Below, piece after piece: positions 26,883 through 41,845 of a stretch of DNA of 64,000 bases; the first letter of the stretch is position 1, and each line of letters starts with the position of its first letter. Under the pieces are notes generated by a model. The model was not told where the DNA came from and ran no database searches. It saw only the letters and a program-made list of their open reading frames with translations. This stretch comes from Oscillospiraceae bacterium (GTDB lineage: Bacteria; Bacillota; Clostridia; Oscillospirales; Oscillospiraceae): positions 62,001-126,000 of the forward strand of contig JAETQF010000005.1 in assembly GCA_021770845.1 (NCBI GenBank), read 5' to 3'. A program made the position numbers and the translations under genes.

Positions 26883-27749
26883 ATGGCAACTGTGAAAAAG
26901 ACCCTGATCTCCTTTGTGATCATCACCCTGGGCGCCGCCGCCTACGCCCTGGGCTTCGTCTGGTGCTACGCCCCCAACGGCATCGCCTTCGGCGGCGTCA
27001 CCGGCGTGGCCCAGATCCTCAACTATCTGATCCCCGCCCTGCCTGTGGGCATCACCGTCATTGTGCTCAACATCCCCCTGTTCCTGCTGGGGTGGAAGCT
27101 CATCGGCGGGCGGCTGCTGGTGTCGTCGCTGTACGCCATGTTTATCTCGTCGGTGTTCATCGACCTGCTCACCGCCGTCCATTCCTGGCAGCCCATGGAT
27201 CCCATGCTGGCCACCATCTTCGGCGGGGTGCTGATGGGGCTGTCCCTGGGGCTGGTGTTCCAGCAGGGGGCCACCACCGGCGGCACCGACCTGCTGGCCC
27301 GGCTGCTGAAGCTGAAGCTGGCGTGGCTGCCCATGGGCAAGCTGCTGATGGGCATTGACCTGGCGGTGATCCTGTCGGTGGCGGCGGCCTTCGGCACGCT
27401 GAAGGCCGCCCTGTACGGGCTGGTGGCGCTGTATATTACGTCCATCGTCATGGACGGGGTGCTGTACGGCATGGACAAGGCCAAGGTGGCCTACATCATC
27501 AGCGACCGGAACCAGGAGATCTCGGAGGCCATTTTCAAAGGGCTGGATCGGGGGGTCACCATCCTCCACGGCCAGGGGGCGTACACGGGGAAGGAGAAGG
27601 ACGTGCTCATGTGCGCCTTCAAGCAGCGGGAGATCACCGCCATCAAGGCGGCGGTGAAGGAGATCGACCCGGAGGCGTTCCTCATCGTGTGCGACGCCCA
27701 CGACGTGCTGGGCGAGGGATTCAAAGAGTACAAGAAGGACGATCTGTAG
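26883..27749 (+). CDS. YitT family membrane protein (DUF161/DUF2179)
   Basis: NGIAFGGVTGVAQIL, GATTGGTDLLARLL, GLDRGVTILHGQGAYTGKEKDVLMC. Confidence 0.93.
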   Translation: MATVKKTLISFVIITLGAAAYALGFVWCYAPNGIAFGGVTGVAQILNYLIPALPVGITVIVLNIPLFLLGWKLIGGRLLVSSLYAMFISSVFIDLLTAVHSWQPMDPMLATIFGGVLMGLSLGLVFQQGATTGGTDLLARLLKLKLAWLPMGKLLMGIDLAVILSVAAAFGTLKAALYGLVALYITSIVMDGVLYGMDKAKVAYIISDRNQEISEAIFKGLDRGVTILHGQGAYTGKEKDVLMCAFKQREITAIKAAVKEIDPEAFLIVCDAHDVLGEGFKEYKKDDL

Positions 27750-34349: not shown

Positions 34350-34378
34350 TTGCAACTTTTGCCCGGTTCTGGTATCAT
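34350..34378 (+). promoter_or_regulatory. Sigma-A-type promoter of uraA leader
   Basis: TTGCAA-N17-TATCAT. Confidence 0.75.
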
Positions 34379-34405
34379 AGAGCGAACGCAAAGGAGGGGA
34401 ACGAG

Positions 34406-34474
34406 ATGCGCCAGCTTACGCCGCTGTTTTTCAAAGCGCCCGGCTGCGGGCGTGCTGTTCCCTTTTCCACGTAG
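34406..34474 (+). CDS. Candidate 22-aa leader peptide MRQLTPLFFKAPGCGRAVPFST
   Basis: RBS AAAGGAGGGG 6-7 nt before ATG; stop codon 2 nt before terminator stem. Confidence 0.65.
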   Translation: MRQLTPLFFKAPGCGRAVPFST

Positions 34475-34476
34475 CT

Positions 34477-34515
34477 GAGACAATCGCCGTTTTTTCGGTG
34501 GTTGTCTCTTTTTTT
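34477..34515 (+). terminator. Leader terminator upstream of uracil permease
   Basis: GAGACAATCGCCG-T6-CGGTGGTTGTCTC followed by T7. Confidence 0.9.
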
Positions 34516-34558
34516 GCGCGGAGCCGTACCATGACATTTGAAAGGGAGAGAGTAGAGT

Positions 34559-35917
34559 ATGACAAATCAGGAACCCGTCCGCGACGCCCGCACCCTGGGA
34601 GTGCCCAAAATGCTCATCCTGGGCCTGCAGCATATGTTCGCCATGTTCGGGGCCACCATCCTGGTGCCCATCATCGTCAGCGGCGCCTATGGCCTGCCCC
34701 TGTCCGTCCAGACCACCCTGTTCTTCGCCGGCATCGGCACCCTGTTCTTCCACCTGTGCGCCAAGCTGAAGGTGCCCGCCTTCCTGGGCTCCTCCTTCGC
34801 CTTCCTGGGCGGCTTCGAGGCCGTGTCCAAGCTGGACTCCGGCAGGTTCGCCGGCATGGAGGCGGCGGAAAAGCTCCAGTACGCCTGCGGCGGCATCGTG
34901 GTGGCCGGCCTGCTGTACCTGGTGCTGGCCCTGCTGGTGAAGGTGGTGGGCGTGCGCAAGGTGATGCGCTTCCTGCCCCCGGTGGTGACCGGGCCCATCA
35001 TCATCTGCATCGGCCTGAACCTGGCCCCCTCCGCCGTGGCCAACGCCTCCCAGTGCTGGCCCCTGGCCCTCATCGCCCTGGCCGTCATCGTGGTGTTCAA
35101 CATCTGGGGCAAGGGGATGTTCAAAATCATCCCCATCCTGCTGGGCGTCGTCATCGCTTACATTGCCGCCATCATCATGAACGCCTGCGGCGTAACCAAC
35201 GCGGACGGCTCCGCCATCCTGAACTTTGAGGCGGTGGCCAAGGCCGGCATCGTGGGCCTGCCCCCCTTCCAGATCGCCAAGTTCGACCTGTCCGCCATCC
35301 TGGTGATGGCCCCCATCGCCATCGCCGCCATGATGGAGCACATCGGCGATATGTCCGCCATCTCCGCCACCGTGGGCGAGAACTTCATTGAGGATCCCGG
35401 CCTGCACCGCACCCTCATCGGCGACGGCGTCGCCACCTCCCTGTCCGCCATGTTCGGCGGCCCCGCCAACACCACCTACGGCGAGAACACCGGCGTGCTG
35501 GTGCTGTCCAAGGTCTATGACCCCCGGGTCATCCGGCTGGCCGCCATCTACGCCATCGTGCTGGGCTTCATCCCCAAGATGAGCGAGCTCATCGGCTCCA
35601 TGCCCACCGCCATCGTGGGCGGCATCAGCTTTATGCTCTACGGCATGATCTCCGCCATCGGTGTGCGCAACGTGGTGGAGAACCGGGTGGACTTCACCAA
35701 CTCCCGGAACCTGATTATCGCCGCGGTGATTCTGGTGTGCGGCCTGGGCTTCTCCGGCGGGCTCACCTTCCAGGTGGGCGGCGCGTCCATCACCCTCACC
35801 TCCCTGGCCATCGCCGCCATCGCGGGGATTGTGCTCAATGCCATCCTGCCGGGGAAGGACTACGAGTTCGGCTCCGACGTGACCGACGGGCGGTCGGCGG
35901 ATTTTGGGCGGTATTGA
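34559..35917 (+). CDS. uraA: Uracil/xanthine permease family (uracil permease-like)
   Basis: LGLQHMFAMFGATILVPIIV; NTTYGENTGVL. Confidence 0.92.
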   Translation: MTNQEPVRDARTLGVPKMLILGLQHMFAMFGATILVPIIVSGAYGLPLSVQTTLFFAGIGTLFFHLCAKLKVPAFLGSSFAFLGGFEAVSKLDSGRFAGMEAAEKLQYACGGIVVAGLLYLVLALLVKVVGVRKVMRFLPPVVTGPIIICIGLNLAPSAVANASQCWPLALIALAVIVVFNIWGKGMFKIIPILLGVVIAYIAAIIMNACGVTNADGSAILNFEAVAKAGIVGLPPFQIAKFDLSAILVMAPIAIAAMMEHIGDMSAISATVGENFIEDPGLHRTLIGDGVATSLSAMFGGPANTTYGENTGVLVLSKVYDPRVIRLAAIYAIVLGFIPKMSELIGSMPTAIVGGISFMLYGMISAIGVRNVVENRVDFTNSRNLIIAAVILVCGLGFSGGLTFQVGGASITLTSLAIAAIAGIVLNAILPGKDYEFGSDVTDGRSADFGRY

Positions 35918-38033: not shown

Positions 38034-38378
38034 AAAGCAATTACCTCCTGTTTCTCTTCCGTTTCACAGTTTAAGTCCGCTCCGAAACCGCTCCACACCC
38101 CCTGTTAAAACAAAATGGGCGTAACAGCCCTCTAAGCTGCCACGCCCTTCTCCAAACTCATGAGCAGATATCCACTTTTCAGCATTGCTGTACTTTCAGC
38201 ATACCAGCCTCACAGTTTTTTGTCAATCTACTTTTTTGATTTTGTAGAAAACCTCCAAATGTGAAAGGCATTTTTTGTCTGCCCCGCCAAAATGCCAAAA
38301 ACCAGAGTTTCCCGACTTGCATTTTTTCCCGGGTCCTGTTATGATAAATGCACGTAAGTTTTGTGCAGAGTCTGAGAC

Positions 38379-38416
38379 GCGCAGAGCAGCCGCCCGGTTG
38401 CTTTGCGCTCTTTTTG
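38379..38416 (+). terminator. Leader terminator upstream of glpP
   Basis: GCGCAGAGCAGCC-GCCC-GGTTGCTTTGCGC plus CTCTTTTTG; promoter TTGCAT-N17-TATGAT at 38317-38345. Confidence 0.8.
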
Positions 38417-38445
38417 TCCGCGGGGATGTGGAAGGGGGGACTCCC

Positions 38446-39012
38446 ATGGATCGAAACAAGCTGCTGGATCTGCTGGCCGAGGGGCCGGTGATTGCCGCCG
38501 TGAAGGACGGGGACGGCCTGACCGCCGCCCTGGAGAGCGACGTGTCCGTGATCTTCCTGCTCAGCGGCGACGTGCTCACCATACCGGATGCCGCCGCCCG
38601 GGTAAAGAAGGCGGGCAAGCGGGCCTTCGTCCACCTGGATCTGGTGGACGGGCTGGCCTCCCGGGAGGTGTCCGTGGACTTCATCGCCCGGCAGACCGCC
38701 GCCGACGGCATCATCTCCACCAAGGCCGCCCTCACCCGCCGGGGCCGGGAGCTGGGGCTGGTGAGCATACAGCGGTTTTTCCTGCTGGACTCCATGGCGC
38801 TGGACAACATCCAGCGCCAGCGGCCCCAGGACGCGGATCTCATTGAGGTGCTCCCCGGCCTGATGCCCAAGATCATCCGCCGGGTGGGGCAGATCACCGG
38901 CAAGCCCGTCATCGCCGGGGGGCTCATCTCCGACAAGGAGGACGTGACCGCCGCCCTCAGCGCGGGGGCGGTGGCGGTGTCCACCACCAACCCGAACGTG
39001 TGGCGGATGTGA
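38446..39012 (+). CDS. glpP: Glycerol uptake operon antiterminator GlpP
   Basis: VIAAVKDGDGL, VFLLSGD-like, FVHLDLVDGL, LPGLMPKIIRRV, PVIAGGLISDKEDV. Confidence 0.93.
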   Translation: MDRNKLLDLLAEGPVIAAVKDGDGLTAALESDVSVIFLLSGDVLTIPDAAARVKKAGKRAFVHLDLVDGLASREVSVDFIARQTAADGIISTKAALTRRGRELGLVSIQRFFLLDSMALDNIQRQRPQDADLIEVLPGLMPKIIRRVGQITGKPVIAGGLISDKEDVTAALSAGAVAVSTTNPNVWRM

Positions 39013-39060
39013 CAATTTTTATGGTAAAACCCTGAATTTTCCGATTTGGGAGGTTATTTC

Positions 39061-40593
39061 ATGTACGATGTCCTGATCATCGGCTGCGGCGTCACCGGCG
39101 CGGCCGCCGCCTTCCAGCTGTCCAAGTACCGGCTGAAGGTGGGCATTTTGGAGCGGGAGAACGACGTGGCCCTGGGCACCACCAAGGCCAACTCCGCCAT
39201 CCTCCACGCCGGGTACGACCCGGAGCCGGGGACGCTGATGGCAAAGCTCAACGTCCGGGGGGTGGAGCTGGCCCGGGAGCTGTGCCAGAAGCTGGACGTG
39301 CCCTATCACAACTGCGGATCCCTGGTGCTGGCCTTCTCGGAGGAGGAGCGGCCCGCGGTGGAGGAGCTGTACCGCCGGGGGATCGAGAACGGCGTGCCGG
39401 GGCTGAGGCTGCTCACCGGGGACGAGGCCCGGGCGCTGGAGCCCAACCTGTCCGGGGAGGTGGTGGCCGCCCTCCACGCCCCCTCCGCCGCCATCTGCTC
39501 GCCCTGGGAGTACTGCCTGGCCCTGGCGGAGACGGCGGTGAAAAACGGGGTGGAGCTGCATTTGAGCACCGCGGTCACCGGCCTGGAGCGGACGGCGGAG
39601 GGCTGGACGGTGCGCACCAGCAGCGGGGAGTTCCAGAGCCGCTTCGTGCTCAACGCCGCCGGGGTGGACGCCGCCATTGTCCACGACCTGGCCGCCCCCC
39701 ACGCCTTTGACATCCACCCCAGCCGGGGGCAGTATTACCTGCTGGACAAGAGCGAGGGCGGCCGGGTGAGCCGGGTGATCTTCCAGTGCCCCAGCAAGGT
39801 AGGCAAGGGCGTGCTGGTGGCCCCCACCGTCCACGGCAACCTCATCGTGGGCCCCGACGCGGAGCGGGTGGAGGGGAACGACACCGCCACCACCGGGGAC
39901 GGCCTGTGCTTCGTCCGGGAGACGGCCCGGAAGTCCGTGCCCTCCGTCAACTTCCGGGAGTCCATCCGCAACTTTGCCGGGGTACGGGCGTCCACCGACC
40001 GGGGGGACTTCATTTTGGAGGAGAGCGCCCCCGGCTTCATCGACCTGGCGGGGATCTGCTCGCCGGGGCTGTCCGCCGCCCCCGCCATCGGGGAGTACGC
40101 GGTGGAGCTGCTGCAAAAGGCGGGGCTGGCGCTGGAGCGGAAGGACGACTTTGTGTGCGAGCGCCGCCGCACCCGTTTTAAGGAGCTGCCCCCCCAGGAG
40201 CGGGGGGCGCTGGTGGAGCGGGAGCCCGCCTTCGGCCGGGTGATCTGCCGGTGCGAGACCATCACCGAGGGGGAGATTTTGGAGGCGCTCCACGGCCCCA
40301 TCCCCCCCTGCTCGGTGGACGGGGTGAAGCGCCGGGTGAACGCAGGCATGGGCCGCTGCCAGGGGGGGTTCTGCGGGCCCCGGGTGGTGGACATCCTGGC
40401 CCGGGAGCTGCACAAGTCCCCTGGGGAGATTGTGCAGGATCAGGCGGGCTCCTGGCTGCTGGATCGGGAGACGAAAACCAATGCCGAACCCAATGTAGGG
40501 CGCGACGACCTCGGCGCGCCGCTCAATTCAGCCCACGGCGGGCCGAGTCGTCCCGCCCTACAATCCACAGAAGGAGGTGCCAGCCATGTATGA
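39061..40593 (+). CDS. FAD-dependent oxidoreductase (GlpA-like, glycerol-3-phosphate dehydrogenase type) with BFD-like C-terminal region
   Basis: VLIIGCGVTGAAAAFQLS; ICRCETITEGEILEAL...GRCQGGFCGPRVV. Confidence 0.9.
   Translation: MYDVLIIGCGVTGAAAAFQLSKYRLKVGILERENDVALGTTKANSAILHAGYDPEPGTLMAKLNVRGVELARELCQKLDVPYHNCGSLVLAFSEEERPAVEELYRRGIENGVPGLRLLTGDEARALEPNLSGEVVAALHAPSAAICSPWEYCLALAETAVKNGVELHLSTAVTGLERTAEGWTVRTSSGEFQSRFVLNAAGVDAAIVHDLAAPHAFDIHPSRGQYYLLDKSEGGRVSRVIFQCPSKVGKGVLVAPTVHGNLIVGPDAERVEGNDTATTGDGLCFVRETARKSVPSVNFRESIRNFAGVRASTDRGDFILEESAPGFIDLAGICSPGLSAAPAIGEYAVELLQKAGLALERKDDFVCERRRTRFKELPPQERGALVEREPAFGRVICRCETITEGEILEALHGPIPPCSVDGVKRRVNAGMGRCQGGFCGPRVVDILARELHKSPGEIVQDQAGSWLLDRETKTNAEPNVGRDDLGAPLNSAHGGPSRPALQSTEGGASHV
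40494..40562. repeat. Palindromic repeat PAL-1 inserted in 3' end of the oxidoreductase CDS
   Basis: TGTAGGGCGCGACGACCTCGGCGCGCCG ... CGGCGGGCCGAGTCGTCCCGCCCTACA. Confidence 0.88.
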
Positions 40594-41845
40594 CCTCATT
40601 GTGATCGGCGGCGGGCCCGCCGGGCTGGCCGCGGCCTGCGCCGCCTGGGAGGGCGGACTGCGGAAAATTTTGATTGTGGAGCGGGACAGGGAGCTGGGCG
40701 GCATCCTGAACCAGTGCATCCACAACGGCTTCGGCCTGCACCACTTCAAGGAGGAGCTCACCGGCCCGGAGTACGCCGGACGGTTCGTGAAGCTGCTGGG
40801 CGAGACCGGCGTGGAGGTGCGGCTGGACACCATGGTGCTGGAGGTCACCGGCCACCGCCAGGTGCACATGGTGGGCAAGTCCACCGGCTACCGGGTGGAG
40901 GAGGCCAAGTCCATCGTCCTTGCCATGGGCTGCCGGGAGCGCACCCGGGGGGCCATCGCCATCCCCGGCACCCGCCCCGCCGGGGTGTTCACCGCCGGGG
41001 CCGCCCAGCGGTATGTGAACATGGAGGGCTGGATGCCCGGGAAACGGGTGGTGATTCTGGGCAGCGGCGACATCGGCCTCATCATGGCCCGGCGCATGAC
41101 CCTGGAGGGCGCCAAGGTGCTGGCCTGCGTGGAGGTGATGCCCTACTCCGGCGGGCTGAACCGGAACATCGTCCAGTGCCTCCACGACTACGACATCCCA
41201 TTGTACCTGTCCCACACCGTCACCGACATCAGGGGCCGCGACCGGGTGGAGCAGGTGGTGGTGTCTCAGGTGGACGCCAGCCGCAATCCCATCCCCGGCA
41301 CGGAGATGGTGTTCGACTGCGACACCCTGCTGCTGTCGGTGGGGCTCATCCCGGAGAACGAGCTCACCCGGCAGGCGGGCATCGAGATCGACCGCCGCAC
41401 CAACGGCGCGGTGGTGTACGAGAATATGGAGACCTCCCTGCCGGGGGTGTTCGCCTGCGGCAACGTGTGCCACGTCCACGACCTGGTGGACTTCGTGACG
41501 GCGGAGAGCCAGAAGGCCGGGGCCGCCGCGGCGGCCTACGTGCGGGGCGGCGGGGCCGCCGCCCCTGACCGGGTGCTGGAGGTCAAAAACGGGGACGGGG
41601 TGACCTACACCGTGCCCCAGCGCATCCGGCCCCATCGGGTGGACAAGCTGTGCGGGCTGTTCTTCCGGGTGAACCGGGTGTGCGGGGACAGCGAGATTCT
41701 GGTGAAGTCCGGGGATACCCAGATCGCCCGCTTCAAGCGGGAGCACCTGGCCCCCGGCGAGATGGAGCGCATCGACCTGCCCCGGGCCCTGCTGGACAGG
41801 GCGGAGGGGGAGCTCACCGTGTCCATCCGGGAGGTGGAGCAATGA
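40586..41845 (+). CDS. FAD/NAD(P)-binding oxidoreductase (GlpB-like partner)
   Basis: YDLIVIGGGPAGLAAACAA; CGNVCHVHDLVDFVT. Confidence 0.9.
   Translation: MYDLIVIGGGPAGLAAACAAWEGGLRKILIVERDRELGGILNQCIHNGFGLHHFKEELTGPEYAGRFVKLLGETGVEVRLDTMVLEVTGHRQVHMVGKSTGYRVEEAKSIVLAMGCRERTRGAIAIPGTRPAGVFTAGAAQRYVNMEGWMPGKRVVILGSGDIGLIMARRMTLEGAKVLACVEVMPYSGGLNRNIVQCLHDYDIPLYLSHTVTDIRGRDRVEQVVVSQVDASRNPIPGTEMVFDCDTLLLSVGLIPENELTRQAGIEIDRRTNGAVVYENMETSLPGVFACGNVCHVHDLVDFVTAESQKAGAAAAAYVRGGGAAAPDRVLEVKNGDGVTYTVPQRIRPHRVDKLCGLFFRVNRVCGDSEILVKSGDTQIARFKREHLAPGEMERIDLPRALLDRAEGELTVSIREVEQ

Follow-up and report, generated by a model that had tools for sequence, protein, structure and literature searches.

A leader in a 64,000-nt stretch of Oscillospiraceae DNA (the whole stretch analysed, hereafter the window) is proposed to be a UTP-timed, ribosome-mediated transcription attenuator of the pyrBI type that controls a uracil permease gene. 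We assign this reading a probability of roughly 0.8. It is based on sequence comparison and analogy, and we infer both the UTP response and the role of the ribosome from the anatomy of the leader and from precedent. An initial annotation, made from the letters of the window, had suggested a pyrBI-like attenuator at this site. The leader open reading frame (ORF), the U tract, the lack of an antiterminator, the lack of PyrR, and the identity of the permease all fit that suggestion. The initial annotation overlooked the conserved part of the leader, which by sequence comparison is a predicted pairing of the leader's Shine-Dalgarno (SD) sequence and start codon with the U tract.

The understanding of pyrimidine control via polymerase pausing comes from enteric bacteria, and Firmicutes are taught as PyrR users. 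A group of common gut Clostridia without PyrR appears to use pyrBI-like control on its uracil importer, with one sensor in place of another at the same gene. This bears on the question of whether transcription-translation coupling is usable for regulation where the polymerase runs ahead of the ribosome; the SD/U-tract hairpin offers a concrete means by which such coupling could work.

Anatomy of the leader and its target gene

All features described here lie on the forward strand. A promoter had been claimed upstream of the leader ORF, and a consensus scan located a sigma-70-type promoter at 34350-34378, with the -35 hexamer TTGCAA (34350-34355), a 17-bp spacer, and the extended -10 hexamer TATCAT (34373-34378) preceded by TG. 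The same extended -10 is found in relatives. From the promoter position, transcription is predicted to start at about 34385. With no U run near 34385, we discarded the possibility of reiterative transcription at the start site. The SD sequence AAAGGAGGGG (34390-34399), which doubles as a portion of the SD/U-tract hairpin's 5' arm, is followed by a leader ORF of 22 codons (MRQLTPLFFKAPGCGRAVPFST) that extends from ATG (34406-34408) to TAG (34472-34474). The stop codon lies 2 nt ahead of the 5' arm of an intrinsic terminator (34477-34515; -20.8 kcal/mol), which consists of a 13-bp stem (34477-34508) and U7. The ORF, the placement of its stop codon, and the terminator were thus confirmed as initially annotated. 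The fold of the whole leader is more stable than expected by chance (z -3.8).

A pyrimidine tract precedes the terminator at 34454-34469. It is U-rich in relatives and is presumed, from its composition, to be a UTP-sensitive polymerase pause region. The tract had been described as pyrimidine-rich, and this holds, with the qualification that the window's own copy is C-rich as well as U-rich; its 10 U in the last 24 nt correspond to the 28th percentile among relatives. A pause-type hairpin (GCGCCCG-GCUG-CGGGCGU, 34436-34453) had also been described. This hairpin can form (-14.1 kcal/mol in isolation), but it competes with the SD hairpin, does not appear in the minimum free energy (MFE) fold computed for the whole leader, and is not conserved; the inner ORF, where it is located, has no excess local structure across relatives.

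The controlled gene (34559-35917) encodes an NCS2 nucleobase:cation symporter of 452 aa, annotated as a UraA-type uracil permease. The protein matches PF00860 at 291 bits and exceeds the cut-off of TIGR00801 (NCS2). Uracil permease is the best-scoring substrate-named model, yet the score is under that model's curated cut-off. The best PDB relatives are solved uracil permeases (E 1e-58). In PyrR-bearing relatives, pyrR often lies directly before the permease gene, as in genome G211 (pyrR at 27169-27693, permease from 27759). Judging from the model scores, the solved relatives, and the adjacency of pyrR, the permease probably imports uracil, which is its likely substrate.

Another region of the window (38293-41845) contains a gene for a GlpP-type antiterminator (PF04309) just before that for an FAD oxidoreductase of the DAO type that carries a BFD-like [2Fe-2S] domain; a further Pyr_redox_2 protein is also encoded there. 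By its gene content, this is likely a GlpP-regulated glycerol-3-phosphate operon.

Conservation of the leader ORF, the U tract, and the SD pairing

A total of 196 regions upstream of the permease (191 distinct) were collected from named contigs and whole genomes. On two criteria alone, a terminator at a distance of 20-145 nt from the gene and a suitably spaced SD-start pair, 94 leaders were selected. Conservation of the start and frame of the leader ORF had been named in the initial annotation as a check on the proposal, and the proposal passed it. In 88 of the 94 leaders, the ORF stays open as far as the terminator (no stop before -6), compared with 37 and 67 for the other two frames read from the same point. 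These 88 leaders form 74 clusters with little mutual sequence similarity, which were used for the later tests; counts across species are not phylogenetically independent. The stops fall mostly on the first bases of the terminator 5' arm (+1 to +3), and the end of the stop falls between -3 and +24 of the arm in 69 of 74 clusters. The leader peptides have a median length of 23, and their sequence is not conserved. Relative to the closest relative, L082 (permease 96% identical), the window has lost one base and the frame of the tract is shifted; despite this, the new stop is again at the terminator. This looks like selection on the arrival of the ribosome at the terminator, not on the peptide.

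The U fraction rises from 0.22 at -42 to 0.54 beside the terminator in the 74 clusters. In the same clusters, the last 24 nt were compared with the first part of the ORF: U is enriched (0.49 vs 0.24, p 1e-12), whereas C is unchanged (0.25 vs 0.25, p 0.5). The enrichment of U but not of C points to UTP, rather than CTP, as the sensed nucleotide.

The tract also appears as a partner of the leader's ribosome-binding site. The window leader has an MFE fold in which a hairpin spanning 34393-34466 joins the SD and start codon to the pyrimidine tract (34393-34403 with 34456-34466, and the start region 34406-34409 with 34450-34453). The RNAalifold consensus of 15 relatives, computed with no prior given, consists of exactly the SD/U-tract helix and the terminator. 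Across the 74 clusters, pairing of the SD and start codon with their own tract averages -21.2 kcal/mol, as against -18.0 kcal/mol with permuted partners (z -9.2), and the own tract outperforms its dinucleotide-shuffled version in 63 clusters (p 1e-10). The control pairings (SD with mid-ORF, SD with upstream sequence, and upstream sequence with tract) have no excess in the shuffle test. Folds from the SD to the start of the terminator contain excess structure in 71 of 74 clusters (p 1e-12), and the excess is lost once the tract is omitted. The SD has a mean openness of 0.47 until the tract is made and of 0.21 afterwards, compared with 0.30 with a shuffled tract (p 9e-9). In the window, the unpaired probability of the SD declines from 0.33 to 0.13 during emergence of 34461-34465; the start was set one base late in this calculation, with no consequence. 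The comparisons identify the SD/U-tract hairpin as the conserved part of the leader.

We propose the following mechanism. The terminator would be the default state, with no antiterminator RNA. Read-through would occur only with a ribosome on the leader stop codon, beside the 5' arm, during synthesis of the terminator; the footprint of this ribosome would cover the arm, a case of direct occlusion. RNA polymerase itself would read UTP. At low UTP, it would pause in the U tract, and the ribosome would gain time to load and catch up. With plentiful UTP, the polymerase would pass the tract without delay, the emerged tract would pair with the SD and start codon, ribosome entry would be shut, and the terminator would form. 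The permease would thus be made only under UTP shortage. At ordinary speeds, RNA polymerase moves at about 50 nt/s and the ribosome at 15-20 codons/s. The interval from exposure of the SD to emergence of the tract would then be about 1 s, and 22 codons would be translated in about the same time. With such similar timescales, the ribosome must load before the polymerase exits the tract. Pausing at low UTP would lengthen exactly this loading window, and completion of the tract would end it.

The last step, closure of ribosome entry by the hairpin after the polymerase clears the tract, is tentative, and we rate it at slightly under even odds. The same grade, a little short of an even chance, applies to the wider idea of a self-closing ribosome gate, in which the UTP-sensing tract serves at the same time as antisense to the ribosome-binding site of its own leader. 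If true, the gate would convert the speed of the polymerase through the tract into a yes/no decision on ribosome loading. RNA polymerase outruns the ribosome in Bacillus subtilis (PMC9226507); coupling in Clostridia therefore cannot be taken for granted. The gate, if true, would make pyrBI-type control workable where the polymerase normally outruns the ribosome.

An unlikely alternative is plain pyrBI logic without a gate. Pausing and occlusion would act as above, and the hairpin would be a by-product or serve another role, for example, in preventing backtracking of the polymerase or in limiting wasteful translation of terminated leaders. The whole evidence for the core mechanism applies equally to this alternative, and purine-rich SDs readily pair with pyrimidine tracts. 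The similar predicted pairing in the Escherichia coli pyrBI leader is not significant alone, 8% of shuffles being as good. Unlike a by-product, the pairing in the Clostridia leaders exceeds that of composition-matched shuffles and is lineage-specific. In addition, pairing alone would favour C opposite a G-rich SD, yet U is enriched; hence, the tract and the pairing are probably both selected.

Other modes of control and distribution of the module

The terminator could be governed by a riboswitch or by a protein regulator acting in trans, either PyrR or some other RNA-binding protein, and PyrR acts in this way on uracil permeases in Bacillus-type bacteria. We consider such control very improbable here. 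Pairing of the terminator 5' arm with the upstream leader does not exceed that of shuffled sequence and, if anything, is avoided; in the positive control, pairing of the 5' arm with the 3' arm was plain (-8.5 kcal). The absence of an antiterminator speaks against schemes of the PyrR, riboswitch, T-box, and trp types. An Rfam search of the leader matched no family, the PyrR site included, in agreement with the initial annotation, which saw no PyrR-type aptamer. No PyrR match (NF003549) exceeds its cut-off in the 37 genomes of the genus examined (the own genome and 36 congeners); the own genome is 82% complete, and congeners up to 100% complete give the same result. Conserved aptamer-like local structure is lacking in the leaders, and a trans-acting regulator would leave the conserved ORF unexplained.

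The 90 family genomes with the permease comprise 49 with the module only, 14 with PyrR only, 1 with both, and 26 with neither. Module and PyrR are thus close to mutually exclusive, with both in 1 of 50 module genomes (Fisher p 2.6e-5, uncorrected for relatedness). The 26 genomes with neither indicate that the permease can do without either. These genome contents suggest that the module and PyrR substitute for each other in the control of a single gene, neither of them being obligatory. Genome G293 (L189) is the sole genome with PyrR and a UTP-type leader, and is a possible intermediate in a swap of controls.

Amino-acid leader attenuation of the trp/his type, in which stalling at Phe, Tyr, or Ser codons sets the choice of RNA structure, is likewise very improbable. 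Phe and Ser are common among the last 8 codons of the peptides, but their abundance is explained by the U-rich tract. Neither the peptide nor the frame of the tract is conserved, conserved regulatory codons are absent, no antiterminator pairs with the terminator arm, and a uracil permease is unconnected with Phe supply.

The module occurs in 23 of 45 genera of the family. A scan of 979 kb on both strands for the combination of SD-led ORF, U tract, and terminator gave 56 matches at permease leaders and none away from this permease. A covariance model (R1) revealed no second site in the own genome; in the genus, it matched essentially permease leaders only, and two weak extra matches looked unrelated on reading. 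The module is absent upstream of pyrG, upp, and the second NCS2 permease gene of the own genome, and carA there has no match over the cut-off. The pyrB leaders examined in the genus are short and without the module. An unregulated arrangement, with a constitutive, partial terminator and a short ORF present by accident, has only a slim chance of being correct: across 74 divergent clusters and 23 genera, the ORF stays open, its stop stays in place, and the U tract and SD pairing persist, and the combination is confined to this permease in the scanned sequence.

Two observations concern single loci. Unlike the congeners examined, the own genome has a strong terminator, AACCCTGCCC-GTT-GGGCAGGGTT TTTTG, about 40 nt before the pyrB start (L246 591-900, G000:C22), with no U tract. 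The same type of leader, with SD-ORF, U tract, and terminator, precedes the permease in a metagenome-assembled genome labelled uncultured Spirochaetales (L019 2850-2983); this reflects either horizontal transfer or a mislabelled bin.

Comparison with known systems

At pyrBI, abundant UTP lets the polymerase run through pyrL and terminate, whereas at low UTP it pauses and the ribosome prevents formation of the terminator (PMC10135430, PMC4824070). The pyrBI leader (pyrL) of E. coli and Salmonella and the leader described here have in common an SD-led short ORF that reaches the terminator, a U-rich tract, a default intrinsic terminator, and no antiterminator. All of the core anatomical features of pyrBI tested here are present, and by analogy the action of the leader would be UTP-timed. 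The two systems differ in several respects. pyrBI controls aspartate transcarbamylase, whereas the Clostridia leader controls a permease. The pyrBI ORF has 44 codons and runs through the terminator; the present ORF has 22 and ends at it. pyrBI has a pause hairpin before the U tract, a feature that we regard as particular to E. coli and not as part of the core. No pause hairpin is conserved here; instead, the SD/U-tract hairpin is strongly conserved in the Clostridia leaders. There is also no U run for slippage at the predicted transcription start, unlike in pyrBI. Folding of E. coli K-12 pyrL (L235 1400-1560) predicts pairing between the SD GGGAGG and the UUCUUCCCG tract of that leader, an arrangement with the geometry of the Clostridia leaders. 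This is a single sequence, and the pairing falls short of significance against the shuffles, as noted above; similar SD/tract pairing may exist in E. coli pyrBI. Given the different phylum and gene, an origin independent of pyrBI is plausible.

The upstream ORF of the E. coli rph-pyrE attenuator also ends just before the terminator, but it is a full enzyme gene, whereas the present leader has a dedicated ORF of 22 codons. PyrR attenuation of Firmicutes pyr operons and uracil permease genes has the same class of target gene and the same output, termination under plentiful pyrimidines. It differs in that PyrR, a PyrR-binding loop, and an antiterminator are all absent here, and the two controls nearly exclude each other in the family.

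According to a 2010 survey, leader-peptide systems had until then not been shown outside Proteobacteria and Actinobacteria, with ermC as the exception (PMC2965389). Literature searches of open-licence papers yielded no description of a UTP-sensing leader from Clostridia, which is a weak sign of novelty. Antibiotic-sensing leaders in Firmicutes are now known. Of these, the ribosome-mediated leaders bmrB, vmlR, and cplR share with the present leader a short leader ORF and a premature terminator. They sense drug-stalled ribosomes, whereas the step proposed to be sensed here is the speed of the polymerase.
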